Of a stretch of 64,000 nt of DNA, positions 46,998 to 63,142 are shown in pieces. How positions within the stretch are numbered: position 1 is the first letter of the stretch; the number at the start of each line of letters is the position of its first letter. The position numbers and the translations under genes were made by a program. The notes beneath the pieces are model-generated. The model made no database searches, had not been told where the DNA came from, and saw nothing but the letters and a program-made list of their open reading frames with translations. The stretch is from the NCBI GenBank assembly GCA_007693945.1, contig RECP01000063.1, positions 1-64,000 of the forward strand, read 5' to 3'. The DNA is from Spirochaetaceae bacterium (lineage in GTDB: Bacteria > Spirochaetota > Spirochaetia > DSM-27196 > PWMO01).

Positions 46998-47181
46998 ATG
47001 AATCCCGGAGAGCTTGCGGCGGTCATTGATAACACCATCGCTGACCCGTTGCTGCCACGGACGGGTATTCCAGACGCGTGCCGCTGACGCTGCAGAGATG
47101 CCGGCTGCCGGGGCCGCGCGAATCGGTAAAAGCCGCGGCACATCGACTATCGACAACTATAACGCCGAAAACAGTGGTTGA
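46998..47181 (+). pseudogene. Collapsed deoxyribose-phosphate aldolase (deoC) remnant
   Basis: A 29-codon ORF from the ATG at 46998 reads MNPGELAAVIDNTIADP, matching the DeoC N-terminus (ELAxxIDHTLLKP). After it, in another frame, comes PAAGAARIGKSRGTSTIDNY up to a stop at 47181, matching the DeoC C-terminal EAGATRIGTSxG segment. About 180 residues of the barrel between them are missing. The gene has been reduced to its two ends by an internal deletion plus a frameshift. A deoC gene would fit the surrounding pentose/polyol operon. Confidence 0.65.
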
Positions 47182-47215
47182 TCGGGACCTGGAGAAAAGG
47201 ACGGAGGGAGGGAGA

Positions 47216-47650
47216 ATGATGGCCACGACACGTACCAGGACGGAACTTTGCAGCCAGGGAGCACAGAACGTCTTGCGGGCAGCAGTGGCGGCAGCTGAGT
47301 TGAGGCACGTAGCGGTCTGCGTTGCTGTGTCCGATTGTGGAGGGCACCCGTTGGCACTGTTGCGGATGGACGCGTGCGGCGCGCACGCGTCCTACATCGC
47401 CATGCGGAAGGCGTGCGCTGCTGCAGTAACCGGAGCAGCCACCGGTCGCGAGCTGCCGCAAGGAACCATTGATCCCGGTCTTGGGGCTTGCATCATGCTG
47501 AGCGCTGCCAACGGGACATTCGTAGCTCTGGAAGGCGGTGAACCGGTGCTGGCGGAAGGCCAGGTAGCCGGCGGTGTTGGCGTGAGCGGCGCCACGGAGG
47601 CCATAGACCGCGAAATAGCCCGTATTGCCGCAGCGGCCTGCGCTCGTTAG
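47216..47650 (+). CDS. GlcG/HbpS family heme-binding-like protein
   Basis: This 144-residue protein belongs to the GlcG/HbpS (DUF336) family: it has ALLRMDACGAHASYIAMRKA, the conserved LRMDGA-like stretch after an N-terminal helix, and GEPVLAEGQVAGGVGVSGA near the C-terminus. HbpS binds heme; many members lie in glycolate, propanediol or polyol operons with unclear roles. The ATG at 47216 follows GGAGGGAGGGAG. It appears intact although both flanking genes are decayed, which may mean it is still under selection. Confidence 0.8.
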   Translation: MMATTRTRTELCSQGAQNVLRAAVAAAELRHVAVCVAVSDCGGHPLALLRMDACGAHASYIAMRKACAAAVTGAATGRELPQGTIDPGLGACIMLSAANGTFVALEGGEPVLAEGQVAGGVGVSGATEAIDREIARIAAAACAR

Positions 47651-50259: not shown

Positions 50260-52257
50260 CTAGTAGCTGTACGCCGCCGAGATCCGGAAACTGCGGCCGG
50301 GGGCGGGATAATATGATCCGAAGAAGACCAAGGGTGCGTAACGAACGTCGAAAAGATTCTTTACCTCGGCACTGAGCGACAGATCGCCCGGCAGACGCTC
50401 GGGTCGGAAGCGCACAAACACGTCGGTCAGGAAGTAGGAATCGATCTTGTCTGACTCGTTCGCGGTATCGCCGCCCTGGTACGCTTGGCTGCGGCAGGTA
50501 ATCGCCGGTCCGAACTCGAGACCGCCAAGTGGGCGCACGCCCAGTTCCGCATCGATGGAATGATTGGGGACGAGAGGCACCTGATTACCCTTGTCATCGC
50601 CCGCGATGAAGACGGCGTTGACGTAGCTGTAACCCGCGCTCAGGCGCAGCTGGTCGATGGGTTCACTTGACAGCTGCACGTCACCGCCGATGCGGCGAGT
50701 TTGATCAAAGTTTTCGTTTGCGCCTTCGAACGTCACGGGATCAAAAACGTACGCTATTTCGTCACGCATCTGCAGCCAGTAGAAGCTGAGATCCGCCCGA
50801 AGTGCGCGTGACAGATAGAGCCCACCTCCGACCTCGACAGTGAAACCACGCTCAGGTTCAAGTGCATCTTCGAACTGATTGGCGAAGTTGACATCAGCCT
50901 GCTCATCCAGAAACGGATAACGAAACAGCGTTCCACCCGATACAAAAAGCTTGGAGACATCACTCGGCCGATACACTACGCCAAGATCAAAGACCACGGC
51001 CTGGTGCGTCTTTGACTCGTCAATTTCGGGGTCGTCTTTCTCGGCAGACAACACACTCCGGTCATAGCGAACGGCCGCCGACGCGTCCAACTGCTCGGTC
51101 AGATAGACCGTGTTTGAGAGCGCGGCACCGAACGTCCACTGTCCCAGCCTGAAATCATTGATCTTATTGTCACGATCAGCGGAATCGTAGCCTCGACCGT
51201 CCTGCCAGGCCCAGCTTCCGTCGATACCGAAGCGAGAACGAACCGGAACGGCACCGGCATCCCAGTCCACAATCACGGCCGGCGACCCCGTCAGTGTGTG
51301 AAGGCTTGCGTCCGTGTAACTGCCGAACGTTACGTTGTCGATTTCGACAAGCTTCAACGAGTAACCCAATACCAGGTCAAGGTGCGCACGATCGCCGATC
51401 CCCCAATCAAGGCCGGCATCGACGGCAAACTGATCCTCGCTCGCCTCATCTTCCTCATTTACTGCCTGCCCCGGATCATCCTCGAACTCTTCCTTCGTCA
51501 ACCCGCCCGGCAACTCGTAGGATACATTGGCGTAGCGGCCGCCGAGACTCAAGCTGAGCCGGTCGCTGACATCGAGGTCGCTGCCGAGGGAGAAATTGAG
51601 CGCCTGGTAAGCGCTGCGGTCGCGGTGGCCGTCGGTCGCAAAGTGTTCGGCGGAGGCGCGCAGGCGGGCGCGCCGGCCGGCAGTGGCGAGTCCGAGACGT
51701 TGCTGGTTGGTCATGAAGCTGCCGAACGACCCGAACGCCGTTACCTCCAGCGGCCGCTCAGGCGTCCTGGTGATGATGTTGATAACGCCGGCCACAGCGT
51801 AGTTGCCGTAGAGCGCGCTCTCGCTGCCGCGCACGACCTCGATGCGCTCGATCGCATCGACAGGTACAGACAGCCAGTTGATGCCCGACATATCGGGGTT
51901 GTTCTGGCGGCGGCCGTCGACCAGCACCAGCACGCGGCCATAAGAGCCTTCGCCGAAGCCGCGCATGTCGACCTGCGCCTGGGCCTCGTTGGAGAACGAG
52001 CGAAACGAGACGCCCGGCTGGCGCTCCAGCAGCTCCACCACGTTGGTGGCGCCGGAGCGGCGAATGTCTTCGGCAGTGATGATGGACACGTGCGCGGCGG
52101 TAGACAGTATGTCGGTGAGCACGCGGTCGGCGGTGATCACAACGTCGATAACCGGCACAGGCTGCGACCTGTCGTCCCGTGGCGAATCCGCCGCCGCGGA
52201 CAGCGGCCCAAAGGCCAGTGGGGCTGCCAGCAGCGATACAAGAAATCGGAATTTCAT
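50260..52257 (-). CDS. btuB: TonB-dependent outer-membrane receptor, BtuB-like
   Basis: This is a 665-residue receptor. Residues 1-22 are a signal peptide (LAAPLAFGPLSAAADS), followed by a TonB box-like stretch (IDVVITADRV), the plug domain (VVELLERQPGVSFRSF, GRVLVLVDGRRQNNPDMSG, VVRGSESALYGNYAVAGVINIITR) and a beta-barrel ending in aromatic FRISAAYSY. ATG 52257 follows AAGGAG; the ORF track adds 40 residues from the leader. A cobalamin riboswitch precedes it, so it most likely imports vitamin B12 or other corrinoids, feeding the methyltransferase genes next door. Confidence 0.9.
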   Translation of the reverse strand: MKFRFLVSLLAAPLAFGPLSAAADSPRDDRSQPVPVIDVVITADRVLTDILSTAAHVSIITAEDIRRSGATNVVELLERQPGVSFRSFSNEAQAQVDMRGFGEGSYGRVLVLVDGRRQNNPDMSGINWLSVPVDAIERIEVVRGSESALYGNYAVAGVINIITRTPERPLEVTAFGSFGSFMTNQQRLGLATAGRRARLRASAEHFATDGHRDRSAYQALNFSLGSDLDVSDRLSLSLGGRYANVSYELPGGLTKEEFEDDPGQAVNEEDEASEDQFAVDAGLDWGIGDRAHLDLVLGYSLKLVEIDNVTFGSYTDASLHTLTGSPAVIVDWDAGAVPVRSRFGIDGSWAWQDGRGYDSADRDNKINDFRLGQWTFGAALSNTVYLTEQLDASAAVRYDRSVLSAEKDDPEIDESKTHQAVVFDLGVVYRPSDVSKLFVSGGTLFRYPFLDEQADVNFANQFEDALEPERGFTVEVGGGLYLSRALRADLSFYWLQMRDEIAYVFDPVTFEGANENFDQTRRIGGDVQLSSEPIDQLRLSAGYSYVNAVFIAGDDKGNQVPLVPNHSIDAELGVRPLGGLEFGPAITCRSQAYQGGDTANESDKIDSYFLTDVFVRFRPERLPGDLSLSAEVKNLFDVRYAPLVFFGSYYPAPGRSFRISAAYSY

Positions 52258-52393
52258 GAAACGGTACTCCTTCTTTGACCCACCGCCTGCGGCGATGAGC
52301 GTGCGGCTACACAGAAGGAATGGTAAGAGCGGATCGGTACACCAGGCTCGTGGGTACGCCACGGCTACGTTACGCATTCCCTGTACGTGAGAG

Positions 52394-52429: not shown

Positions 52430-52600
52430 GGAATCGTCTTCTGGCTAACGGATATTCAGCGTCTCGCCTTCCCATCCCATGAGGACAGTGGCAATGAGGC
52501 ACCTCGAATCCGCACACAGCGGCACGCCCGCACCTGATTCACACAGGTTTCCGTTCTTCCTTTCCGCTTGTTGGTTCGCGGTCTGAGCACCTCCTGATGA
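52430..52600 (-). ncRNA. Cobalamin riboswitch upstream of btuB
   Basis: Read on the minus strand, the leader has the cobalamin aptamer elements in the right order: GAGGTGCTCAG at the 5' side, GGAAACC then AATCAGGTGCGGGCGTGCCGC, TTGCCACTGTCC, GGGAAGGCGAGACGC and finally AGCCAGAAGAC, a B12-box variant (usual form AGCCAGGAGACC). Spacing fits an aptamer of about 170 bases. It should lower btuB and tonB expression when cobalamin is plentiful. A covariance-model search would settle the fold. Confidence 0.88.
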
Positions 52601-52710: not shown

Positions 52711-53736
52711 TCATAGCGGCCGGGCGCGGTTCTCGCGGGCAAAGCGGCGCATAGCATCGATATTCTCTGCCGGCGTGTCACGCGGCACTTCACAGCCGGC
52801 GTTTACCGCGTAGCAGCTGCCCCCGGCCTGGTCGTAGCACTCCTGAAACGCCCGGTAGACCGATTCGGGTGTTCCGTCGCGCAAGGCGCGGACGGGGTCA
52901 ATGTTGCCGGACAGAAGTTGCCGTGGGCCGGTCTCCCGCCGGGCGGCAGTCAGCGCCACCATTGAATCCAGATCGAGTATGTCAGCGCCAACTTCCCTGA
53001 GCATCGCCAGCAATGGTGTGGTATTGCCGCAGATGTGCAAGCGCACCAGCGCGCCCATCTCGTGCAGAGTCTGCACGTATCTCTTCTGGTACTCCCAGAT
53101 GAAGGCACGGTACAACTTCGGGCCGGCCAGCGAAGCTGCCGCATCGCCAACTCCAATGATGTCGGCTCCGGCTGCAATCTGCGCGCGCGCAAAGGTCATC
53201 TCCATTTCGAATACAAAGTCGAACAGATCGCGCACAAAGCCTTCGTCATCGTAGAGATCCATCATGAAGGTGTTGATGCCGCGCAGGTCACAACTCTCGG
53301 CAATTGGGCCTTCGACCCAACCTTCAACCAGTTTCTGATCACCGACCTCGGTCTTCAACCGTGAGATGACCTCCAGACGTTTGGACATGCGCGGACCGCT
53401 GCCCGGATCGGGCACGTTGAGCGATCGCAGCCGTGACTTGTCCTGCAGCAGCGCATTACTTTCGTCGACAGCCGGCGGCTGGTTTTCGTAGTAGATGATG
53501 GCAGCTCCGAGGTCCGCCGCCTCGGTGGTCGGGCACGAAATCGCCGAAACGTGATCGACATCGTACCGCTCGGCGAACGCGATCTGGCCCCGAGCGTGTG
53601 CCGCGGCATCGAGTACGTACTGCCTGTAGCAAACGCCTGCCTGATCAGCGGCTATCATCATCGAGATCGGAATGAGCGGCAACGAGTCGGTCTGTTCGCC
53701 CCGCACAGTAAGCGTAATTCGTTCTCTGCCGGTCAT
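52711..53736 (-). CDS. UroD/MtaA family corrinoid methyltransferase
   Basis: This 341-residue TIM-barrel protein is of the uroporphyrinogen decarboxylase/MtaA superfamily. The zinc-binding motif used by the methyltransferases is intact: RLHICGNTTPLL (HxCG) and, near the C-terminus, NAGCEVPRDTPAENI. It should move a methyl group between a substrate and the corrinoid protein encoded divergently at 53.9 kb. It is not heme synthesis: UroD's own residues are absent and no hem genes are nearby. ATG 53736 follows AGGAGG; the ORF track adds 23 residues. Confidence 0.87.
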   Translation of the reverse strand: MTGRERITLTVRGEQTDSLPLIPISMMIAADQAGVCYRQYVLDAAAHARGQIAFAERYDVDHVSAISCPTTEAADLGAAIIYYENQPPAVDESNALLQDKSRLRSLNVPDPGSGPRMSKRLEVISRLKTEVGDQKLVEGWVEGPIAESCDLRGINTFMMDLYDDEGFVRDLFDFVFEMEMTFARAQIAAGADIIGVGDAAASLAGPKLYRAFIWEYQKRYVQTLHEMGALVRLHICGNTTPLLAMLREVGADILDLDSMVALTAARRETGPRQLLSGNIDPVRALRDGTPESVYRAFQECYDQAGGSCYAVNAGCEVPRDTPAENIDAMRRFARENRARPL

Positions 53737-53781
53737 TTGGTACCTCCTGCGCGGTATGGCGCCACCATGCGCACGTTTGTG

Positions 53782-53842
53782 GCAGAATTCTGCAATACAG
53801 CGCAAAATTGTCTTATACAGATGGGGTTCATCGGTTTATACT
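53782..53842 (+). promoter_or_regulatory. Divergent control region of corrinoid genes (AraC-type repeats, palindrome)
   Basis: TATACA (53814-53819), 17 bases and TATACT (53837-53842) form a promoter for the corrinoid protein. ATACAG occurs at 53795-53800 and again at 53815-53820, a 20-base spacing on one helix face, with the second copy covering the -35 as in class II AraC activation. GCAGAATTCTGC (53782-53793) is a perfect 12-base palindrome next to the first repeat. The PocR-AraC protein at 54.6 kb is the obvious candidate to bind here. Confidence 0.55.
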
Positions 53843-53889: not shown

Positions 53890-54534
53890 ATGAGTCTACT
53901 GAGTGAGCTGTCGGAGCAACTGCAGCGGGGCAAAGCAAACGAAGTCAAGGATCTGGTGCAGAAGGCGCTTGACGAAGGCATCGAGCCACGTGCGGTCCTT
54001 GAGGAAGGCCTGATGGACGGAATGGGCATCATTGGCGAAAAGTTCAAGAACAACGAGTGCTACGTGCCGGAAGTGCTGATCGCCGCGCGGGCGATGAACG
54101 CCGGCATAACGGTACTGAAACCGCACCTGGTGACAAGTGGTGTGAAGGCTCAAGGCACTGTGGTCCTCGGAACAGTCAAGGGTGATCTTCACGACATCGG
54201 CAAGAATCTGGTGCGGATGATGATGGAGGGCAAGGGGCTTGAAGTCATTGATATCGGCGTCGATGTTCCGGCCGAGAAGTTCGTAACCACGGCAATCGAA
54301 CACAACGCCGACATCATCGCGTGCTCTGCGCTGTTGACTACTACCATGACGGAAATGCGCAACATCGTGGACAGGATTGTTGAAGACGGCGTTCGCGACC
54401 GCTTCAAGATCATGGTGGGTGGGGCGCCGGTCACCGACAGCTTCTGCAAAACCGTTGGTGCAGACCTCTACGCCCCGGATGCCTCAAGCGCAGCCGACGT
54501 CGCCGTTGAGTACTGCAAATCAAAGGCCAGCTGA
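53890..54534 (+). CDS. Corrinoid (methyl-carrier) protein, MtbC/MtaC-like
   Basis: The protein is 214 residues, normal for the family. Residues 1-85 form the helical cap (VLEEGLMDGMGIIGEKFKNNECYVPEVLIAARAM) and the rest is the B12-binding domain, with GDLHDIGKNLV (DxHxxG, the His that ligates cobalt), SALLTTTM and the VGGAPV phosphate loop. It shuttles a methyl group between methyltransferases. The ATG at 53890 follows GGAGGAGGAAAACA. It is transcribed alone up to a strong terminator. Confidence 0.95.
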   Translation: MSLLSELSEQLQRGKANEVKDLVQKALDEGIEPRAVLEEGLMDGMGIIGEKFKNNECYVPEVLIAARAMNAGITVLKPHLVTSGVKAQGTVVLGTVKGDLHDIGKNLVRMMMEGKGLEVIDIGVDVPAEKFVTTAIEHNADIIACSALLTTTMTEMRNIVDRIVEDGVRDRFKIMVGGAPVTDSFCKTVGADLYAPDASSAADVAVEYCKSKAS

Positions 54535-54569: not shown

Positions 54570-54649
54570 CCGATGACTTTTCGCGTTTCAGACGTCGTCG
54601 CGCTCCACCGATTACACAACGGTCTTTCTTGAGGTACTCTTGGTCAGAC

Positions 54650-55942
54650 ATGCAGATCAAGGCAGAAGGCACCCTGTTCGATTTCGACAAGGCAGTCGCT
54701 TGCGTCGATGACTACAGTCGCGCCACGGGCGTGAGTTGCTCGATTCTCGACCGCAACGGAAACTCGCTCTTCCGCGCCGGTGACGGCCCCGATCCGTGTG
54801 TCGGCTGCTGTAAGCTTCAGTCGCTGGCGGACAGGCCACGCGGTTGCCGTGACACCCACCTTTACAGCATCTATCACGCCGAGCGCTTCGGGGGTCGCTA
54901 CATCTTCTTCTGCCCCATATCTCTGATCCACTGGACCTCGCCGATTGTCGTCGGAGGATCTACCGTTGGTGCCCTGCTCGGCGGACCGGTGCTGGCGGTT
55001 GATGAGAAGGACTTTTTTGAGCAGGAATTCTTCCGCATGTTTCCTGAGGTGCTGCCCGACCCCGACGAGCTGAGAGCCCGTTTCAGCAACGTGCCGTACG
55101 TTGATCCGGCGCGCATCAAGAGCCTTTCCGAGCTGCTCTACGCGCTGGGCTGTCTGCTTTCCGAAGGCGATCAGCCGGCCTTTTCGGCAGAGTACGAGAA
55201 GCTGGTGGTGGATTCGCGCATATCCGAGTACATCCACTATATCAAGCAGCTCGACCAGAGCAACGACGAGACTCTGGCCTACCCGGTGGAAAAGGAATCT
55301 CTGCTGCTCGAGTGCATCCGCAACGGCAATCAAGCCGAGGCACAGAAGATACTCAACGAGATTCTGGGGTATGTGTTTTTTACGTCGGGCCGTGATCTCG
55401 ATGTGATCAAGGCGCGCGTACTCGAGCTCGCCGTGCTGCTCTCGCGCGCAGCCCTGCAGGGAGGCGCCGACAACGAGCAGATCTTCGGACTCAACTTCCG
55501 CTACCTGCAGCAGCTATACACGATGAAAGACGTGGATGATATCGCCTACGGGCTCTCGCAGATCATGCGCCGCTTCACCGACTGCGTGTTCATTCTCAAG
55601 GACGTAAAACACGTTGATGTAATCCAGCGCAGCATCGCCTACATCCGGAAACACTACAACGAGCGTATTCCGCTGGAGGAGATCGCGCGGCACGTCTCGC
55701 TCAGCCCGGCCTATTTCAGTCGGCTGTTCAAGGAGGAGATGAAGACAACATTCATCGAGTTTCTGAATCGCTACCGAATCACCAAGGCCAAGTCGCTCCT
55801 GGTGAACTCGCGCACACCGATAATAGACGTTGCCGGCATGGTTGGATTCGATGACCAGAGCTACTTTACCAAGGTATTCAAGAAGCTCTCCGGCGTCAGT
55901 CCGGGGCGGTTCCGCGAGTCCGGCGGACAACCGAAGGGGTGA
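54650..55942 (+). CDS. AraC family regulator with PocR ligand-sensing domain
   Basis: The protein is 430 residues long. Residues 1-160 are a PocR-type sensory domain: CSILDRNGNSLFRAG, paired cysteines in CVGCCKLQ, GCRDTHLYSIYHAERFGGRY and FFCPISLIHWTSPI. The C-terminus (330-425) is a double helix-turn-helix AraC domain with IPLEEIARHVSLSPAYFSRLFKEE and the closing FKKLSGVSPGRFRES. PocR-AraC proteins commonly control B12-dependent pathways such as propanediol use and corrinoid methyltransferases. It probably activates the divergent promoter at 53.8 kb. Its stop overlaps the next gene's ribosome site. Confidence 0.92.
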   Translation: MQIKAEGTLFDFDKAVACVDDYSRATGVSCSILDRNGNSLFRAGDGPDPCVGCCKLQSLADRPRGCRDTHLYSIYHAERFGGRYIFFCPISLIHWTSPIVVGGSTVGALLGGPVLAVDEKDFFEQEFFRMFPEVLPDPDELRARFSNVPYVDPARIKSLSELLYALGCLLSEGDQPAFSAEYEKLVVDSRISEYIHYIKQLDQSNDETLAYPVEKESLLLECIRNGNQAEAQKILNEILGYVFFTSGRDLDVIKARVLELAVLLSRAALQGGADNEQIFGLNFRYLQQLYTMKDVDDIAYGLSQIMRRFTDCVFILKDVKHVDVIQRSIAYIRKHYNERIPLEEIARHVSLSPAYFSRLFKEEMKTTFIEFLNRYRITKAKSLLVNSRTPIIDVAGMVGFDDQSYFTKVFKKLSGVSPGRFRESGGQPKG

Positions 55943-55944
55943 AG

Positions 55945-56688
55945 ATGCGACTGAAGATCATCGCCTGCAAGGTACTGTTCCGCGAGTTGAGTCTGCTGGC
56001 GGCCCGATCCGGGAATACTATCGATACCGTATTCCTTGATCAACGCTATCACGATCAGCCGGAAGGGCTGCGGGCGAAGCTGCAGCAAAAGATCATCGAA
56101 ATCGAGAATGAGGTAGCGCCGCCGGCCCATAGCCCGTACGCCAGATCGCATGACTACGAGGCAATTCTGCTGGGCTACGCGCTGTGCAGTAATGCGATCG
56201 TCGGTCTCCGGTCCAGCAAGTACCGTTTGGTAGTACCTCGCGCGCACGACTGTATCTCGCTGTTTCTGGGAAGCCGCAGACGCTACAAGCAATACTTCGA
56301 CAAGCATCCGGGCACGTACTGGTACACGCGCGGATGGATGGAAAATGTCCTGATGCCGGGCAAGGAGCGCTACCAGGAGAGCTATCAGCACTACAGTCAG
56401 CAGTACGGTGAAGATAACGCCGATTACCTGATGAAGATGGAGCAGGACTGGCTTTCGAAGTACAACCGCTGTACGTTCATCGAATGGCCCGACATACCCG
56501 CTGAGCAACACAAACAGCAGGCCAGGAGCGCATCGCGCTACCTTGACTGGGCGTACGACGAGCAACTGGGCAGCTCCGAATTACTGCGCGATTTTGTGGA
56601 AGGAAACTGGGACAACCGTTTCCTGGTCATCGAGCCGGGCAAGAGCATAGCACCGTCATTCGACGAGGGAGTCATTACCGAGTCATGA
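55945..56688 (+). CDS. DUF1638 family protein
   Basis: This 247-residue protein matches the DUF1638 family: it starts RLKIIACKVLFREL and has FLDQRYHDQPEGLR, LLGYALCSNAIVGL, VPRAHDCISLFLGS and PGTYWYTRGWMEN. The conserved Cys and His positions (ACKV, LCSN, AHDC) suggest metal or cofactor binding. The biochemical role is not established; family members are often encoded with corrinoid methyltransferases and their activators, as here. I use the ATG at 55945 behind AAGGGG; the GTG at 55939 has no site. It overlaps the next gene by ATGA. Confidence 0.88.
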   Translation: MRLKIIACKVLFRELSLLAARSGNTIDTVFLDQRYHDQPEGLRAKLQQKIIEIENEVAPPAHSPYARSHDYEAILLGYALCSNAIVGLRSSKYRLVVPRAHDCISLFLGSRRRYKQYFDKHPGTYWYTRGWMENVLMPGKERYQESYQHYSQQYGEDNADYLMKMEQDWLSKYNRCTFIEWPDIPAEQHKQQARSASRYLDWAYDEQLGSSELLRDFVEGNWDNRFLVIEPGKSIAPSFDEGVITES

Positions 56689-58571
56689 AGTCTGACCGGA
56701 CCATCGGTGTCATACAGGACGGCCGACAACACCAGGTCGACATCGGCGGCGCCGCGGATATCCTCGCAGTGCTGCAGCACAGCCGGTTTACGATCGCCGC
56801 ACCGTGCGGTGGTTCCGGCACGTGCGGTAAGTGCCTGGTCCGGGTGGCCGCCGGCGATCCCGGACAGCCGAGCACGATGGAGCAGCGGCTGCTCTCCTCC
56901 GGGCGCCTGTCGGCGGGGATGCGCTTTGCCTGCCGCCTGGTTCCGGCGGACGGGATGCTGATCGAGATTCCCCGCTGGCACGCCGAGACCCTCAACAAGG
57001 CTTCACTGATCAGCGTTCCGCTGCAGAATGACCCTCCGCTGATCAAGCGTGCTCTTCGTCTCGCACCGCCTTCAATCGACGACCAGACCCCCGATCTGGA
57101 GCGGGTTCTCAGAACAAGCGGTTGTGCGAAGCAACGCTTGTCGGTCCACGCGCTGCGGACACTCGCGCAGGACCTGCGTCGGGGCGGCTTTGCGGTTACC
57201 GCGCTGATAGAAAACAACGCAGACGATTGCGACTGCCTGGTGGCGATTGAGTGCGGTGACACAGCCGCCACCCTGTGGGGCGCCGCGGTGGATATCGGCA
57301 CTACCACGGTTGCGGCCTACCTGGTGAATCTGGTCAGCGCTCGTGCCGTCGATGTCTTTTCCGAGATCAACAGACAGGCCGAGTTCGGCGCCGACGTTGT
57401 GACACGCATCAGCTATTCTCAGAAGCACGGCGTAACCGCCGTTCGGCAGGTAATTGTCGCTCAGATCAACGCCATGCTTGCGAAACTGGCGCAGCGCAAC
57501 GGTCTCGCGGTCAGCGACATCTACCTGGCCGCGGTGGCCGGCAACACGACAATGCTGCACTTTTTCACCGGCCTGGACCCCGCGGCAATCGGCGTGTCGC
57601 CGTTCATTCCGGTTGCGACGCGTGCTCTATCGCTCGCGGCCGCAGATCTCGACGTCGCAATCAATCCGCACGGTGTGGTGGCGACACTGCCCGGGATCTC
57701 CGGATACGTGGGTGCCGACGTGGTAGCCGCAATTGTTGCGTCGCGCATGCGGCAGCGCACTGAGATCAGTCTACTGATCGATATTGGAACCAACGGCGAA
57801 ATCGTGCTCGGAAACGTCGACTGGCTGGCTGCCTGCTCGACCGCGGCGGGCCCGGCGTTCGAGGGTGCCCAGATCCGCTTTGGTGTCGGCGGAGTCGACG
57901 GAGCGGTAAACTCATTCTCGTTCGACCCGGAAGGTTCCCGGGCTGACGCGCAGAACGGCGGCCAGGTGTCACTCACAACCATCAACTCCACACCGGTCAG
58001 CGGTATCTGCGGCTCGGGCATGCTGGATATTGCAGCGGTCCTGGTGCAGACCGGCGCCGTCGATAAGACCGGGCGGCTGCTGCCGCGCGATCGATTGCCG
58101 CGCAGCGTGCCTCCCGCGATCCGTGAGCGGTGTACCGAGTTTGAGTCAAGCCCCGCGTTCCTGGTAGCGGACTCGGAACTGACCCGTGACGGCGAACCTG
58201 TCTACCTGACCGAGCACGACGTCCGTGAGCTGCAGCTTGCCAAAGCCGCGATAGCCGCCGGAATCGATACGCTGCTGACAGACGCGGGAGTCGAGGCCGG
58301 CGAAGTGGCCGCAGTCTACCTGGCCGGCGGGTTCGGCAGTTATATGAACGCCGCGAGCGCACTGGCGGTCGGCCTCATCCCGCACCGGCTTGGTGGCCGC
58401 ATCGAGGTGCTCGGTAACGCAGCGGGAATCGGCACTGTAATGAGTATCACTTCGCGCACGGTATCGAGGCAGTGCCGCGGCATCGCGCGGAACGTGCGCT
58501 ACATAGAGCTGTCCAGTTCGGCGAGTTTTCAGAACGCCTACATAGAGCACATGGGGTTCGGGGAGTTGTAG
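56685..58571 (+). CDS. RACo-type corrinoid reductive activator (ferredoxin-ASKHA protein)
   Basis: This 628-residue protein has an N-terminal 2Fe-2S ferredoxin domain with PCGGSGTCGKC and a fourth Cys in RFACRLVP, followed by a linker and a large ASKHA ATPase domain (GAAVDIGTTTVAAYL, AAVAGNTTMLHFF, LLIDIGTNGEIVLG, CGSGMLDIAAVL and AVYLAGGFGSYMNA). Proteins of this type reduce inactive Co(II) corrinoid to Co(I) at the expense of ATP. It is the maintenance enzyme for the corrinoid protein at 53.9 kb. The start overlaps DUF1638 by four bases, so the two are probably made together. Confidence 0.92.
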   Translation: MKSDRTIGVIQDGRQHQVDIGGAADILAVLQHSRFTIAAPCGGSGTCGKCLVRVAAGDPGQPSTMEQRLLSSGRLSAGMRFACRLVPADGMLIEIPRWHAETLNKASLISVPLQNDPPLIKRALRLAPPSIDDQTPDLERVLRTSGCAKQRLSVHALRTLAQDLRRGGFAVTALIENNADDCDCLVAIECGDTAATLWGAAVDIGTTTVAAYLVNLVSARAVDVFSEINRQAEFGADVVTRISYSQKHGVTAVRQVIVAQINAMLAKLAQRNGLAVSDIYLAAVAGNTTMLHFFTGLDPAAIGVSPFIPVATRALSLAAADLDVAINPHGVVATLPGISGYVGADVVAAIVASRMRQRTEISLLIDIGTNGEIVLGNVDWLAACSTAAGPAFEGAQIRFGVGGVDGAVNSFSFDPEGSRADAQNGGQVSLTTINSTPVSGICGSGMLDIAAVLVQTGAVDKTGRLLPRDRLPRSVPPAIRERCTEFESSPAFLVADSELTRDGEPVYLTEHDVRELQLAKAAIAAGIDTLLTDAGVEAGEVAAVYLAGGFGSYMNAASALAVGLIPHRLGGRIEVLGNAAGIGTVMSITSRTVSRQCRGIARNVRYIELSSSASFQNAYIEHMGFGEL

Positions 58572-58822: not shown

Positions 58823-58882
58823 AGTGTCCGTCTTGCGCTTATTGGACAATAGTGCAACAATCGCGTGCAGCAAGGAGCGCGC

Positions 58883-59890
58883 ATGCAGCAACACGAATTC
58901 CCGCGCACCACGGTGGTTGGCAGCTACCCGCTTCCCGAATGGCTCAAGGTCATGCCGAGTCGTCCCAATCTGCGCGACGCGATCATGACGGTGATCGCCA
59001 CCCAGGAACTGGCGGGTATCGACGTGGTAACCGACGGCGAGCTGAGCCGCTTCGACGTCAACCACCCCGAAACCAACGGCATGATAGAGAGCTTCATCGC
59101 GCCGATGGCTGGTGTCTATCGCGACTTCACCCGCGAGGAGATGGAGGGGTTCAGCCGGCAGCAGGGGATGGGGTTCCGCACACAGCCGGCCGGCGTCGTC
59201 AGGGACAGGATCGGTGAGGGCCGGCTCAACCTGGTTGAGCAGTACCGCTTTGCTCGACCACTGGCAAGGAACGAGCTCAAGTGCACGGTTACGGCTCCCT
59301 ACATGCTGTCCAAGACGCTCTACGACACCTACTACCGTGATCTTCCCGCGTTGAACTGGGATATCTCGGAGGCCCTCAAGGCGCAGGTCAGCCGGATCGA
59401 TGCACCCGTGGTCCAGCTGGACGAGGCAAACCTGCCCGGGCATCCCGAAGACACCGCCTGGGCTCACGAGTCGATCAACAACCTCCTCGCGGCAATCAAG
59501 GGCCGCCGCGGCCTGCACCTCTGCTTCGGCAACTACGGCGGCCAGTCGATCCAGCGCGGTTTCTGGCGCGACATGATCCCGTTCCTCAACAAGCTGCAGC
59601 TTGACCACCTGGTGCTGGAGTTTGCCCGCCGTGGATATGACGAGCTTGAAGCGTTTCGCGAGTTGCGGCCCGACATCGCGCTCGGTATCGGCGTCATCGA
59701 TATCAAGGACAACGAGGTGGAGACGCCGGAAACGGTGGCACGCCGGATTGAGAAGGCCGTGGACGTCCTGGGTGCCGAGCGCATCAAGTGGGTGCACCCG
59801 GACTGCGGTTTCTGGATGCTGTTGCGTTCCGTGGCGGACCGCAAGATGGAGGCCCTGGTACAGGGGCGCAACGCGTTTCTCGGGCGGTGA
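58883..59890 (+). CDS. MetE C-terminal-like (cobalamin-independent methionine synthase family) methyltransferase
   Basis: This 335-residue protein corresponds to the catalytic C-terminal half of MetE only, as in short archaeal-type and corrinoid-linked forms. The zinc ligands are present in order: His and Cys in GLHLCFGNYGG, Glu in LVLEFARRG and Cys in VHPDCGFWML. The N-terminus reads TTVVGSYPLPEW and TDGELSRFD. It probably accepts a methyl group onto a thiol such as homocysteine or coenzyme-like thiol, or takes it from the island's corrinoid protein. ATG 58883 follows AAGGAG; the ORF track begins earlier with GTG. Confidence 0.85.
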   Translation: MQQHEFPRTTVVGSYPLPEWLKVMPSRPNLRDAIMTVIATQELAGIDVVTDGELSRFDVNHPETNGMIESFIAPMAGVYRDFTREEMEGFSRQQGMGFRTQPAGVVRDRIGEGRLNLVEQYRFARPLARNELKCTVTAPYMLSKTLYDTYYRDLPALNWDISEALKAQVSRIDAPVVQLDEANLPGHPEDTAWAHESINNLLAAIKGRRGLHLCFGNYGGQSIQRGFWRDMIPFLNKLQLDHLVLEFARRGYDELEAFRELRPDIALGIGVIDIKDNEVETPETVARRIEKAVDVLGAERIKWVHPDCGFWMLLRSVADRKMEALVQGRNAFLGR

Positions 59891-59935: not shown

Positions 59936-60979
59936 TCAGCGATCCTGATCCATGCACATCCGCCGGAAATGCAGAACGTCGGCCGGGCTGGTGCTGTAGG
60001 AGACACAGCCGCAGCCCCACACGAAGCGGGCCATCCCGCGCGACTTCTCGGCGAGCACCGACAGGGCACGCTGCACGCCGGCCCACTCCGCTCGCTCGAT
60101 CATCTTGGGATCGGCGCAGCCCCTTACGACTATATCGCTGTCGTGCTGCTCCAGCGCCTTCCGGATGTGCGTGAAGTCCGCGTTGTAGTCCGCGGCAATC
60201 AGCGAGGCACCGCTCTGTATGAAGAACCGGATCAGTTCAGAGACGTTGCCGCCCATAATGATTGCCGGCGGAGGCGTAGCGAAATCGGCGCGCAGCGCCT
60301 CAATGATTGTGCGCTCGTAGGGCACAACGAACTGCTCGAAGATGCCCGGGTCAATCAGGGGCAACGTTGCCCACGATTCGTAAATATTGATACCGACGCC
60401 GCAACGCGACAGATTGGAAGCGTGACGCAGAGAGAACTCGGACGTCCTTCTCATCAGCGCGTGGACCTGTTGCGGCGCCGTCAGCATGTCCATCAACAGG
60501 TTCTCGAAACCTCGCAATTCCACAGCCTGCGAGAACGGTCCTCCCATACAGGCGTAGACCCAGACATCGTTGCCGATCGCGGTCATCACCCTGTCACACG
60601 CGTCCGCGACAAGGCTCAGACGGTTACCGGAATCTGCCGAACCGGACACGTCGATCGCGTCCGGATCGAGCGAATCCTGACCGGCCAGCGGATGCGAGAC
60701 AACGCCGGGCACGGCGGTGCTGGTGTCCTCATACTTCACGCTGCATCCAAGCGCCTCGGCTTCAACGTTATAGACATCGATACCCACCGTCACCAGATCG
60801 TGGCTGTAGGTTTCGTAAGCCGCGACGGCCGCCTCCGCCATCAGGGCTGCATCGCGGGCCACCACCGAAGGCGTGCGCTCGAGCAGTGCAGCGCCGTGCT
60901 CGTAGATCGACGGTACAAAGGGGGTACGATCCGGCGTCCGGCCGCCGAACACCGCCTGCATTCGCTCTATCGCCCGCAT
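59936..60979 (-). CDS. UroD/MtaA family protein lacking the zinc HxC motif
   Basis: This 347-residue TIM-barrel protein starts IERMQAVFGGRTPDRTPFVPS, a typical UroD/MtaA-family opening. Where the methyltransferases have HxCGN it has AIIMGGNVSELI, so both zinc ligands are gone, although the GGN and the following helix remain. Near the end GCGCVSYSTSP keeps a Cys pair. It may not be a zinc thiol methyltransferase but an acceptor-, substrate-specificity or methyl-donor-side subunit. It is convergent with the MetE-like gene and overlaps nothing. Confidence 0.82.
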   Translation of the reverse strand: MRAIERMQAVFGGRTPDRTPFVPSIYEHGAALLERTPSVVARDAALMAEAAVAAYETYSHDLVTVGIDVYNVEAEALGCSVKYEDTSTAVPGVVSHPLAGQDSLDPDAIDVSGSADSGNRLSLVADACDRVMTAIGNDVWVYACMGGPFSQAVELRGFENLLMDMLTAPQQVHALMRRTSEFSLRHASNLSRCGVGINIYESWATLPLIDPGIFEQFVVPYERTIIEALRADFATPPPAIIMGGNVSELIRFFIQSGASLIAADYNADFTHIRKALEQHDSDIVVRGCADPKMIERAEWAGVQRALSVLAEKSRGMARFVWGCGCVSYSTSPADVLHFRRMCMDQDR

Positions 60980-61001: not shown

Positions 61002-62069
61002 TCACCCGCGCCACTCGGCCAGATGCCGGTTCACAAAATCATCATCAGTCAGATGCGGGTACGCACGGCAGACACGGGTAATCTCTTCGCTCTGCCCGGG
61101 GCTCATACGCTCCTCGCGGTCCAGGCACGTAACGCCGCCAAAGATACCCTGACGACGCAGCACCTCATGGATTCCCGGAAGACAGCCGGCGTAGCCGTTG
61201 GCGGCATCAAAAATCGCCCCGTTCATGTCGGTGATCTCGGCTGCCAGCGTCAGCATCCCGGCTGGAACTCCGGCCTCGGAGTCCGCGAGCTCACGGCACT
61301 GCCGGTGAATCTCGACCGCTCGTTTTGTCCACACGCCCCAGTGACCCAACAGCCCACCGCATATGCGCATCGTCCGTGTCCGTTGAGTGCCAACGACGCG
61401 AAACGGCGTCAGCAAGTCCGCCACGATTGTGTCGTCGTTGCCGGTATAGAGCGCAACTTCATCGGCCCGTCCTGAATCCGCGATCCCACGTAGCACCGTT
61501 AGAGTGGCGTAACGATCAAACGGGGCGATCTTGACGCCCCAGACATCGTCCAGGGCCGCGAAGCGGCGCCAGAAATCGTACGACAGCATCATTCCGCCAA
61601 CCGCAGTCTGCAGGTAGAACCCGATGACCGCTATCTCCCGCGACACCGCGCGAATATGCTCCACGAGCAGGTCAACCGAAGCATTACGCAGCGCGGCCAG
61701 ACTCACCAGAGCGGCGTGGTAGCCGCGTGACCGCGCCAGACGAGCCTCGGACAGCGCCTGTTCACGTTCACCGCAGATGCCGGCAATCATGACCATCGGT
61801 CGGCCGCGACGGTCCGACCACTCGCCGACCGTTTCGTACGCAAACTCGAGTATCCGCTGATAGAAACCGGGCGTATCGCGAATTGCAAACTGGGTTGAAT
61901 GCACGCCGACGGCGATCCCGCCCGCTCCGGCGTCAACATAGTAGCGCAGTACGGCTCGCTGGCTCTGCTGATCAAGCCGTCGCTGCGGTGTCAGCGCCAG
62001 CGGCATCGCCGGGATCACCAGTCCGTTGTGAAAGCGTTTGCGGGCTTCGGGTACACTAAGTATGCTCAC
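61002..62069 (-). CDS. Dihydrodipicolinate synthase (DapA) family-like protein
   Basis: This 355-residue protein resembles the DapA/N-acetylneuraminate lyase barrel family. It has VIPAMPLALTPQRRLDQQSQ at the start, GAGGIAVGVHSTQF where classical members read GxTGE-like residues, and VWGVKIAPFDR with the Schiff-base Lys position (GVKIA). It probably acts as an aldolase or lyase on a keto acid. I use the GTG at 62069 behind GGGGGAG; the ORF-track extension is not family-like. It is co-directional with the UroD-like gene 22 bases downstream. Confidence 0.78.
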   Translation of the reverse strand: MSILSVPEARKRFHNGLVIPAMPLALTPQRRLDQQSQRAVLRYYVDAGAGGIAVGVHSTQFAIRDTPGFYQRILEFAYETVGEWSDRRGRPMVMIAGICGEREQALSEARLARSRGYHAALVSLAALRNASVDLLVEHIRAVSREIAVIGFYLQTAVGGMMLSYDFWRRFAALDDVWGVKIAPFDRYATLTVLRGIADSGRADEVALYTGNDDTIVADLLTPFRVVGTQRTRTMRICGGLLGHWGVWTKRAVEIHRQCRELADSEAGVPAGMLTLAAEITDMNGAIFDAANGYAGCLPGIHEVLRRQGIFGGVTCLDREERMSPGQSEEITRVCRAYPHLTDDDFVNRHLAEWRG

Positions 62070-62107
62070 GCTCCCCCCTGAGCGCCGCGCCGGCAACGGC
62101 CGACGCG

Positions 62108-63142
62108 TCAGTAGCGCCCATCGCGTACTTCCCAGTGAGTCGGTTTGCCCAGACCGCGCCCGCCGGAGGCGACCCATCCCGCGGTCCAGCGAATCACGTG
62201 CTCGAGCGGAACCTGCGGATAGCCAAAAAGGCCAGCCGCCCGGGACGCGTTACCCAGCAGCGCATCGGATGCGCTCTCGTTGCTGAGCACGGGGGTCTTG
62301 CCGAGCAGCTCACCGAACCGTTGGGCCAGATATCGAACCGAGACGGTCTCCGGACCGGTGATGTTGAGTGCCGAGGCCGGCACTTCGGCACACGCAAACG
62401 CCCGCAAAGAGAGGTCGACAGCATCGCCCTGCCAGATCAGGTTCACAAAACCCATCGAGAGATCAACCGGACGCTCGTTGTAGACGTTTTCGGCAATATC
62501 CCTGATCACGCCGTAGCGCAGGTCGTTGGCGTAGTACAGCCGAATCAGACAGACCGGAGTACCGAAGCGTATCGATGCCCATTGAAACAGACGTTCACGC
62601 GCCACCGCCGCGTTGCCGTACTCACCGCGTGGCTCGAGAGGATCGTGTTCGCGCGACCCGCCGGAGGCCACCGGAACCAGATCGTATACGGCGCCGGTCG
62701 AGTAAGCAACCAACGGTATACCGGCATAGCGGCGACATACAAAAAGCGGCGGGACGGCGTTCATGGCCCAGGTCTCAGCCTCTGCACCACTTGTACCAAA
62801 CTTTCGTCCCACCAGGTAGACGACCCGATCGGCATCCGGCAGAGCTGCTACCTGGTCGGGATCCAGAACGTCAGCCGTGACGGTCTCAACCGCTCTCTGC
62901 TCGAGGAATTGGCGTGCATGCTCATCCGAAAAGCGCGAAACACCGATGACCCGCGCCGAACTGCCGGCCCGCTCAAGCGCACGGCGCAACCGAACCGCCA
63001 GCGTGCCTCCCATCTTGCCGCCGACACCGAGCACGACCACGTTCCCTGAAAGACCGGCGACGCTCGCAACCAGCGCATCCGAGGGCACCGTAAGCACGTC
63101 GTCGAGTTGTTGCTCGTCGCTGATCATCTCAGGCAGTTGCAT
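62108..63142 (-). CDS. NAD-dependent epimerase/dehydratase family protein, catalytic Lys missing
   Basis: This 344-residue extended SDR-like protein has the Rossmann motif VVVLGVGGKMGGTLA and the strand YSTGAVYD. At the usual YxxxK active site the sequence is EYGNAAVARERLF: the Tyr is present but the Lys is replaced by Ala. The substrate-binding end (LNITGPETVSVRYLAQ) is retained. It may be a non-catalytic sugar-nucleotide binder or use a different residue. ATG 63142; a weak ribosome site precedes it. It lies upstream of the DapA-like gene and probably shares its operon. Confidence 0.8.
   Translation of the reverse strand: MQLPEMISDEQQLDDVLTVPSDALVASVAGLSGNVVVLGVGGKMGGTLAVRLRRALERAGSSARVIGVSRFSDEHARQFLEQRAVETVTADVLDPDQVAALPDADRVVYLVGRKFGTSGAEAETWAMNAVPPLFVCRRYAGIPLVAYSTGAVYDLVPVASGGSREHDPLEPRGEYGNAAVARERLFQWASIRFGTPVCLIRLYYANDLRYGVIRDIAENVYNERPVDLSMGFVNLIWQGDAVDLSLRAFACAEVPASALNITGPETVSVRYLAQRFGELLGKTPVLSNESASDALLGNASRAAGLFGYPQVPLEHVIRWTAGWVASGGRGLGKPTHWEVRDGRY

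Follow-up and report, generated by a model that had tools for sequence, protein, structure and literature searches.

A DUF1638 protein with three invariant cysteines, encoded with a RACo-type corrinoid activator in Spirochaetota

Genes of the DUF1638-RACo locus

The window, the 64,000-nucleotide stretch of Spirochaetaceae DNA analyzed here, carries a group of corrinoid-related genes (Table 1), among them an open reading frame that runs from an ATG at 55945 to a TGA ending at 56688. Its product matches PF07796 with 132.7 bits (cutoff, 27) and covers model positions 1 to 160 of 161, in agreement with the original prediction that it is a DUF1638 protein. The source draft genome is 86% complete, and its relatives in sequence are MAGs of Spirochaetaceae and Spirochaetales. 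The gene had also been described as overlapping its two neighbors, and this was borne out: its stop codon and the RACo start share ATGA at 56685 to 56688, the stop codon of the regulator (TGA) occupies 55940 to 55942, and a putative ribosome site lies within the last codons of the regulator. The ATGA overlap and an ATGCGA start were kept in four close relatives (L002 to L005; 75 to 81% protein identity), that is, in 5/5 congeneric loci when the window is counted. Since the overlap is the same in all four relatives, it is conserved and not a product of chance. It is reasonable to infer that DUF1638 and RACo are made in a fixed ratio, or in near equal amounts, through this coupling.

Table 1. 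Features of the window and of DUF1638 fusion and cassette loci in other Spirochaetota
Feature	Position	Strand	Evidence
TonB-dependent receptor, probably BtuB-like, behind riboswitch	50260..52377	-	PF00593 1.8e-34, PF07715 1.8e-27
Cobalamin riboswitch, upstream of TonB-dependent receptor; B12-uptake context	52436..52552	-	Rfam RF00174, 64.7 bits vs 31.5
MtaA/CmuA-like UroD-superfamily corrinoid methyltransferase, divergent from corrinoid gene	52711..53805	-	PF01208 8.7e-57
Stand-alone corrinoid (methyl-carrier) protein, DLHDIG (DxHxxG) motif	53890..54534	+	PF02310/PF02607; motif
PocR-domain AraC-family regulator, stops just ahead of DUF1638 start	54608..55942	+	PF10114 3.8e-22, HTH_18 6e-24
Putative Shine-Dalgarno AAGGGG of DUF1638, within regulator's last codons	55934..55939	+	Sequence
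DUF1638 protein, type I, 247 aa	55945..56688	+	PF07796 E 1.5e-38; 45-sequence alignment
RACo-type reductive activator of corrinoid protein: Fer2, linker, middle, ASKHA domains	56685..58571	+	PF14574 4e-71, PF17651 8e-54, PF17650 3e-11, PF00111 2e-6
DUF1638-ASKHA fusions	L033 5841-8762; L037 6343-9171; L038 7727-10630; L179 196-3012; L183 6317-9127
Type II cassette loci	L042, L046, L047, L052, L054, L055, L190, L191, L192, L193		Kinase HisKA_2, or HisKA with receiver

The MtaA/CmuA-like protein scored 148.7 bits with TIGR01463 (cutoff, 235.4), and the corrinoid protein scored below the cutoffs of the MtgC and pyl_corrinoid models. The window genome also encodes a complete MetH of 1237 aa. This enzyme has its own activation domain (PF02965), and on that ground MetH was rejected as the protein served by the DUF1638-RACo pair in this genome. 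Besides MetH, the only PF02607 protein found in a search of the draft genome was the stand-alone corrinoid protein of the cluster. As far as a draft genome can tell, RACo and DUF1638 have no other candidate client.

Several further genes lie near the cluster. A core-MetE-like (Meth_synt_2) protein is encoded at 58865 to 59890, 294 nt past RACo, and scores below every methionine synthase cutoff; it could be a methyl acceptor partner. Its gene was rejected as a member of the unit, as it was not seen downstream of RACo in L004 or L005. It is followed by a second UroD-superfamily MtaA-like gene on the minus strand (59936 to 60979) and by a 391-aa open reading frame (61002 to 62177) that by eye resembles dihydrodipicolinate-synthase-type aldolases and gave no Pfam or NCBIfam match at 1e-3. 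On the other side, an HbpS-like gene (haem-degrading protein family; 47078 to 47650) adjoins a zinc-type alcohol dehydrogenase gene.

Distribution of DUF1638 across genomes and RACo types

DUF1638 proteins of Spirochaetota were divided, by sequence and length and after the data had been seen, into a long, window-like form (type I; about 220 to 265 aa) and a short form (type II; about 190 to 215 aa). A search of 393 Spirochaetota genomes placed type I in 20 genomes from 13 families. The RACo middle domain (PF17651) was present in 19 of these 20, compared with 90/393 genomes overall, and the twentieth (G144) has the RACo C-terminal domain (PF14574) at a contig edge. RACo accompanied type I in 13/13 genomes among the first 198 searched and in 7/7 among those added. 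A divergent DUF1638 protein in G077, a genome without RACo, was left out of the 20; with it included, the count becomes 20/21. Under independence, the chance probability is 2.6e-14 for 20/20 and about 100 times larger for 19/20, values that are indicative only, as the genomes are related. The divergences of DUF1638 and RACo were correlated (r, 0.58; one per genus), a correlation that is confounded by species relatedness and was not used as evidence.

In most genomes, the DUF1638 and RACo genes are unlinked. DUF1638 followed directly by RACo was also seen in G011 (L040), where the regulator, MtaA-like, and corrinoid genes lie on another contig (L143). In G245, which belongs to another family, DUF1638 is divergent from a RACo-PocR regulator-corrinoid protein series (L169) whose regulator and corrinoid protein resemble those of the window (3e-101 and 4e-93, respectively), and the order regulator-corrinoid-RACo occurs in G044 (L132). 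At L005, the regulator-DUF1638-RACo trio stands without recognizable corrinoid or methyltransferase genes alongside, and its standing alone marks the trio as a separable unit.

A pairing of DUF1638 with a corrinoid activator is already known from bacterial genetics, without a mechanism. In Phaeobacter inhibens, DUF1638 mutants behave like mutants of a RamA-like protein and of a three-part B12-dependent methionine synthase, with which the gene is cofit; loss of the DUF1638 homologue leads to methionine auxotrophy, as does loss of the activase; DUF1638 and RamA-like genes co-occur across the alpha-Proteobacteria; and no specific proposal for DUF1638 was offered (Price et al., 2018; PMC5764234). 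The Phaeobacter pair (PGA1_c13340, DUF1638; PGA1_c15200, RamA-like) shares with the window a DUF1638 protein, a ferredoxin/DUF4445 activator, and a stand-alone corrinoid protein. However, its genes are unlinked and its client is a split methionine synthase, whereas the window genes overlap behind a PocR/AraC regulator in a genome with a complete MetH. The client described by Price et al. is a methionine synthase lacking PF02965, and the candidate client in the window genome is another corrinoid protein. In Ruegeria pomeroyi, DUF1638 and RamA rise together on methylated N-osmolytes (2025 PNAS, PMC12478193). That DUF1638-RamA pair (SPO2162 and SPO2041, with MtgC) is likewise comparable to the window pair, but Ruegeria is an aerobe with a glycine betaine MtgBCD system, while the methyltransferases of the window are MtaA/CmuA-like.

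The relation to RACo differed between RACo types. In a tree of 62 RACo proteins, an AcsV-type clade of 24 rows was recovered (SH-aLRT, 100); those of its members that were scanned score 560 to 676 against the AcsV model. Of the AcsV-clade RACos of the first tree, 15/19 lie within about 10 kb of a CoFeSP subunit gene on the same contig. The window RACo falls outside this clade, scoring 407 bits with the AcsV model (NF040756; cutoff, 800) and 126 bits with the RamA model (TIGR04270; cutoff, 500), and a search of the window genome for CoFeSP (PF03599) gave no match. Type I DUF1638 was found in 0/16 genomes whose long RACo is of AcsV type only, compared with 17/26 genomes with a non-AcsV RACo (Fisher P value, 1.4e-5; the genomes are not phylogenetically independent). 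The Carboxydothermus RACo/CoFeSP system, of AcsV type, resembles the window in having an ASKHA ATPase that reduces Co(II) with a [2Fe-2S] cluster but differs in that its Spirochaetota counterparts, where they occur alone, are without type I DUF1638.

All six type I genomes represented in the AcsV clade carry a second RACo outside it. Non-AcsV RACos without DUF1638 were also found, in one family (G224, G261, and G326) and in the single genomes G256, G371, G143, and G366, as well as in G016 and G028, which are incomplete. An apparent concentration of DUF1638 in one RACo clade (15/17) weakened after 195 genomes had been added, and only the lack of DUF1638 on the AcsV side held. In G174, a RACo outside the AcsV clade (G174b), which groups with those of DUF1638 genomes, is embedded in an acetyl-CoA synthase/pterin methyltransferase cluster (L136, G174:C137), and an AcsV-clade RACo lies on a different contig. 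CoFeSP has its own [4Fe-4S] cluster and provides no lower axial ligand to cobalt. The DxHxxG motif, as in MetH, denotes base-off/His-on corrinoid binding, and the client protein of the window carries it as DLHDIG. Either the Fe-S cluster of CoFeSP or its absent lower ligand could account for DUF1638 being needed on the non-AcsV side only.

Conserved cysteines, fusions, and kinase cassettes

To the window protein and those of L002 to L005 were added loci from two genome searches, giving an alignment of 45 diverse Spirochaetota DUF1638 proteins in which identity to the window protein drops to about 14%. Three cysteines, C8, C81, and C103, are identical in 45/45 sequences and form the sole invariant columns; two apparently N-truncated members recover C8 if translated from a non-ATG start. 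Position 36 is His in 41/45 and Asp in two (L186 and L189), and in L054 and L055, which are kinase- or UroD-associated forms, a Cys adjoins it. E14 is conserved in 42/45. The absolute conservation of the cysteines and the alternation of His and Asp at position 36 strongly suggest a metal site, and, judged from the alignment, C8, C81, and C103, with H36, probably hold a metal. The motifs that the original prediction had singled out as possible metal or corrinoid ligands all exist (IIACK with C8, ALCSN with C81, and AHDC with C103), although H36 had been missed.

An AF2 model built from five sequences was unusable (pLDDT, 45.3); each cysteine follows a predicted strand in it, an arrangement that carries no weight at pLDDT 45, and Foldseek with this model, for which a Rossmann-like alpha/beta fold was considered, returned no match at an E value of ≤0.001. 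The family profile found no relative in a PDB sequence search (best E value, 0.92), and no DUF1638 homologue was found in the viral contigs and plasmids searched. Homology to the D-type Fe-S protein of 2-hydroxyacyl-CoA dehydratases (HGD-D, PF06050) was rejected at an hhalign probability of 0.6%.

One DUF1638 gene (L043 7807 to 8600, in G003) has an in-frame TAG where its nearest relatives carry Gln. Pyrrolysyl-tRNA synthetase is encoded in the vicinity of corrinoid genes in G003, G039, and G068 (L122, L123, and L124), which raises the possibility of pyrrolysine use in these Spirochaetota; in the stretches scanned, ARAGORN detected no tRNA-Pyl near PylS.

In five genomes from four families (G054, G068, G087, G350, and G375), DUF1638 is the N-terminal portion of an approximately 940- to 970-aa protein that otherwise consists of a hydantoinase/oxoprolinase-type ASKHA protein. 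Of the congeneric genomes G350 and G362, whose RACos are 58% identical, one has only a fused DUF1638 and the other only a free one, which suggests that the two forms can replace each other. The main short group, type II, has a different setting: in 10/10 loci, a corrinoid protein, a UroD methyltransferase, DUF1638, and a histidine kinase adjoin one another. In L052, L055, and L193, DUF1638 and the kinase form a single protein, and in L054, DUF1638 is joined to UroD; most genomes with this set of genes are without RACo. This cassette looks like a corrinoid-based two-component sensor. As the corrinoid protein is the partner common to types I and II, we assign DUF1638 to that protein rather than to RACo alone.

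Possible roles in corrinoid reactivation

Gene order, co-occurrence, fusion, and published genetics (PMC5764234, PMC12478193) support the predicted coupling of DUF1638 to the corrinoid activator, and DUF1638 very probably has a role in RACo-dependent reactivation. On balance, we lean toward a reading in which type I DUF1638 is a module that carries a metal, docks on the corrinoid protein, and aids its reactivation by RACo; docking itself, which we infer, is somewhat favored. The corrinoid protein of the cluster would work as Co(I) and would sometimes oxidize to inactive Co(II), which RACo would re-reduce with ATP and its own [2Fe-2S] cluster. DUF1638 would dock on this base-off/His-on type of corrinoid protein and assist RACo there. 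Its working site would be a metal center, most likely Fe-S, on C8, C81, C103, and H36, and this center would either relay electrons or free the lower axial ligand, so that Co(II) becomes reducible. Between these two actions we make no choice, and the metal, its identity, and its electron or ligand role are all proposals.

The activating enzyme of the Acetobacterium dehalogenans O-demethylase bears on how far such help is needed. It is likewise a [2Fe-2S], ATP-dependent activator, which with ATP raises the Co(II)/Co(I) potential and reduces the corrinoid protein, and the available part of the source describes the four-component system without a DUF1638 partner (PMC6739815). Because this activator works with no further partner mentioned there, DUF1638 would not be chemically indispensable, and it may be needed by some RACos only.

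Taken separately, an electron relay is possible rather than probable. Here, a [4Fe-4S]-like cluster on DUF1638 would replace the Fe-S domain of CoFeSP, which is absent from MtgC/MetH-type proteins, and would pass electrons to RACo or to cobalt. Three invariant cysteines with His or Asp at a fourth position are consistent with such a cluster, as is the absence of type I DUF1638 where the only RACo is of AcsV type and serves the Fe-S-bearing CoFeSP. In addition, ASKHA ATPases are known to pair with Fe-S partners in 2-hydroxyacyl-CoA dehydratases, where the activator meets the cysteine-ligated HGD-D. This comparison is an analogy only, and the profile comparison with HGD-D above speaks against the relay. 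Moreover, some non-AcsV RACos occur without DUF1638, and, in the available part of PMC6739815, an activator with only a [2Fe-2S] cluster reduces the Fe-S-free O-demethylase corrinoid protein.

A second possibility, which we consider doubtful, is that DUF1638 acts as the MetH activation domain does, keeping a His-on corrinoid protein His-off and four-coordinate for RACo, with the Cys3-His site as structural Zn. That the client has DxHxxG and CoFeSP no lower ligand would fit, and the short DUF1638 proteins that accompany corrinoid proteins without RACo point to the corrinoid protein as the common partner. However, DUF1638 is present in the window genome and in G011 even though the MetH of each already contains an activation domain, binding is only predicted, and a purely structural site is seldom the sole invariant feature of a family.

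The kinase cassettes, present at all ten type II loci and fused in four, raise the alternative that DUF1638 performs no chemistry and serves purely as a sensor of the redox or methylation state of the corrinoid protein, signaling to RACo in type I and to the kinase in type II. This is unlikely, as the methionine auxotrophy that follows loss of the homologue, like that of the activase, suggests an active role (PMC5764234).

Nothing suggests that DUF1638 transfers methyl groups. Least likely of all is that it is a methyltransferase subunit with a thiol-activating Zn-Cys3 site and not a reactivation factor: Cys3 Zn sites are known in methionine synthase and thiol-activating Zn in UroD-type methyltransferases, and there is one DUF1638-UroD fusion, but type I follows RACo and no particular methyltransferase, DUF1638 stays with RACo and the regulator at L005, where the MtaA-like and corrinoid genes are elsewhere, and Phaeobacter has separate methyltransferase subunits (PMC5764234).

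Returning to the docking module, we tentatively entertain a wider form of it, in which DUF1638 bears a metal, serves as a general reader of corrinoid proteins, and has two uses. Combined with an ASKHA ATPase, either RACo in trans or the hydantoinase type in cis, it would drive the reactivation of corrinoid proteins that lack an Fe-S cluster of their own; combined with a histidine kinase, it would turn the methyltransferase of the type II cassette into a two-component sensor.

The original prediction as a whole is partly supported. Its statement that the role in methyl transfer is unknown was half right, in that a mechanism is still lacking but the literature already puts DUF1638 on the side of B12 reactivation. 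The literature searched contained no mention of the Cys3/His site, the tie to one RACo type, or the use next to sensor kinases. DUF1638 is one of two genes tied to B12 reactivation by a genome-wide screen (PMC5764234), and the Cys3/His site, the AcsV/non-AcsV split, the ASKHA fusions, and the kinase cassettes make the question of its function testable at the bench. Should the sensor cassette prove real, a corrinoid methyltransferase would be coupled there to a histidine kinase.
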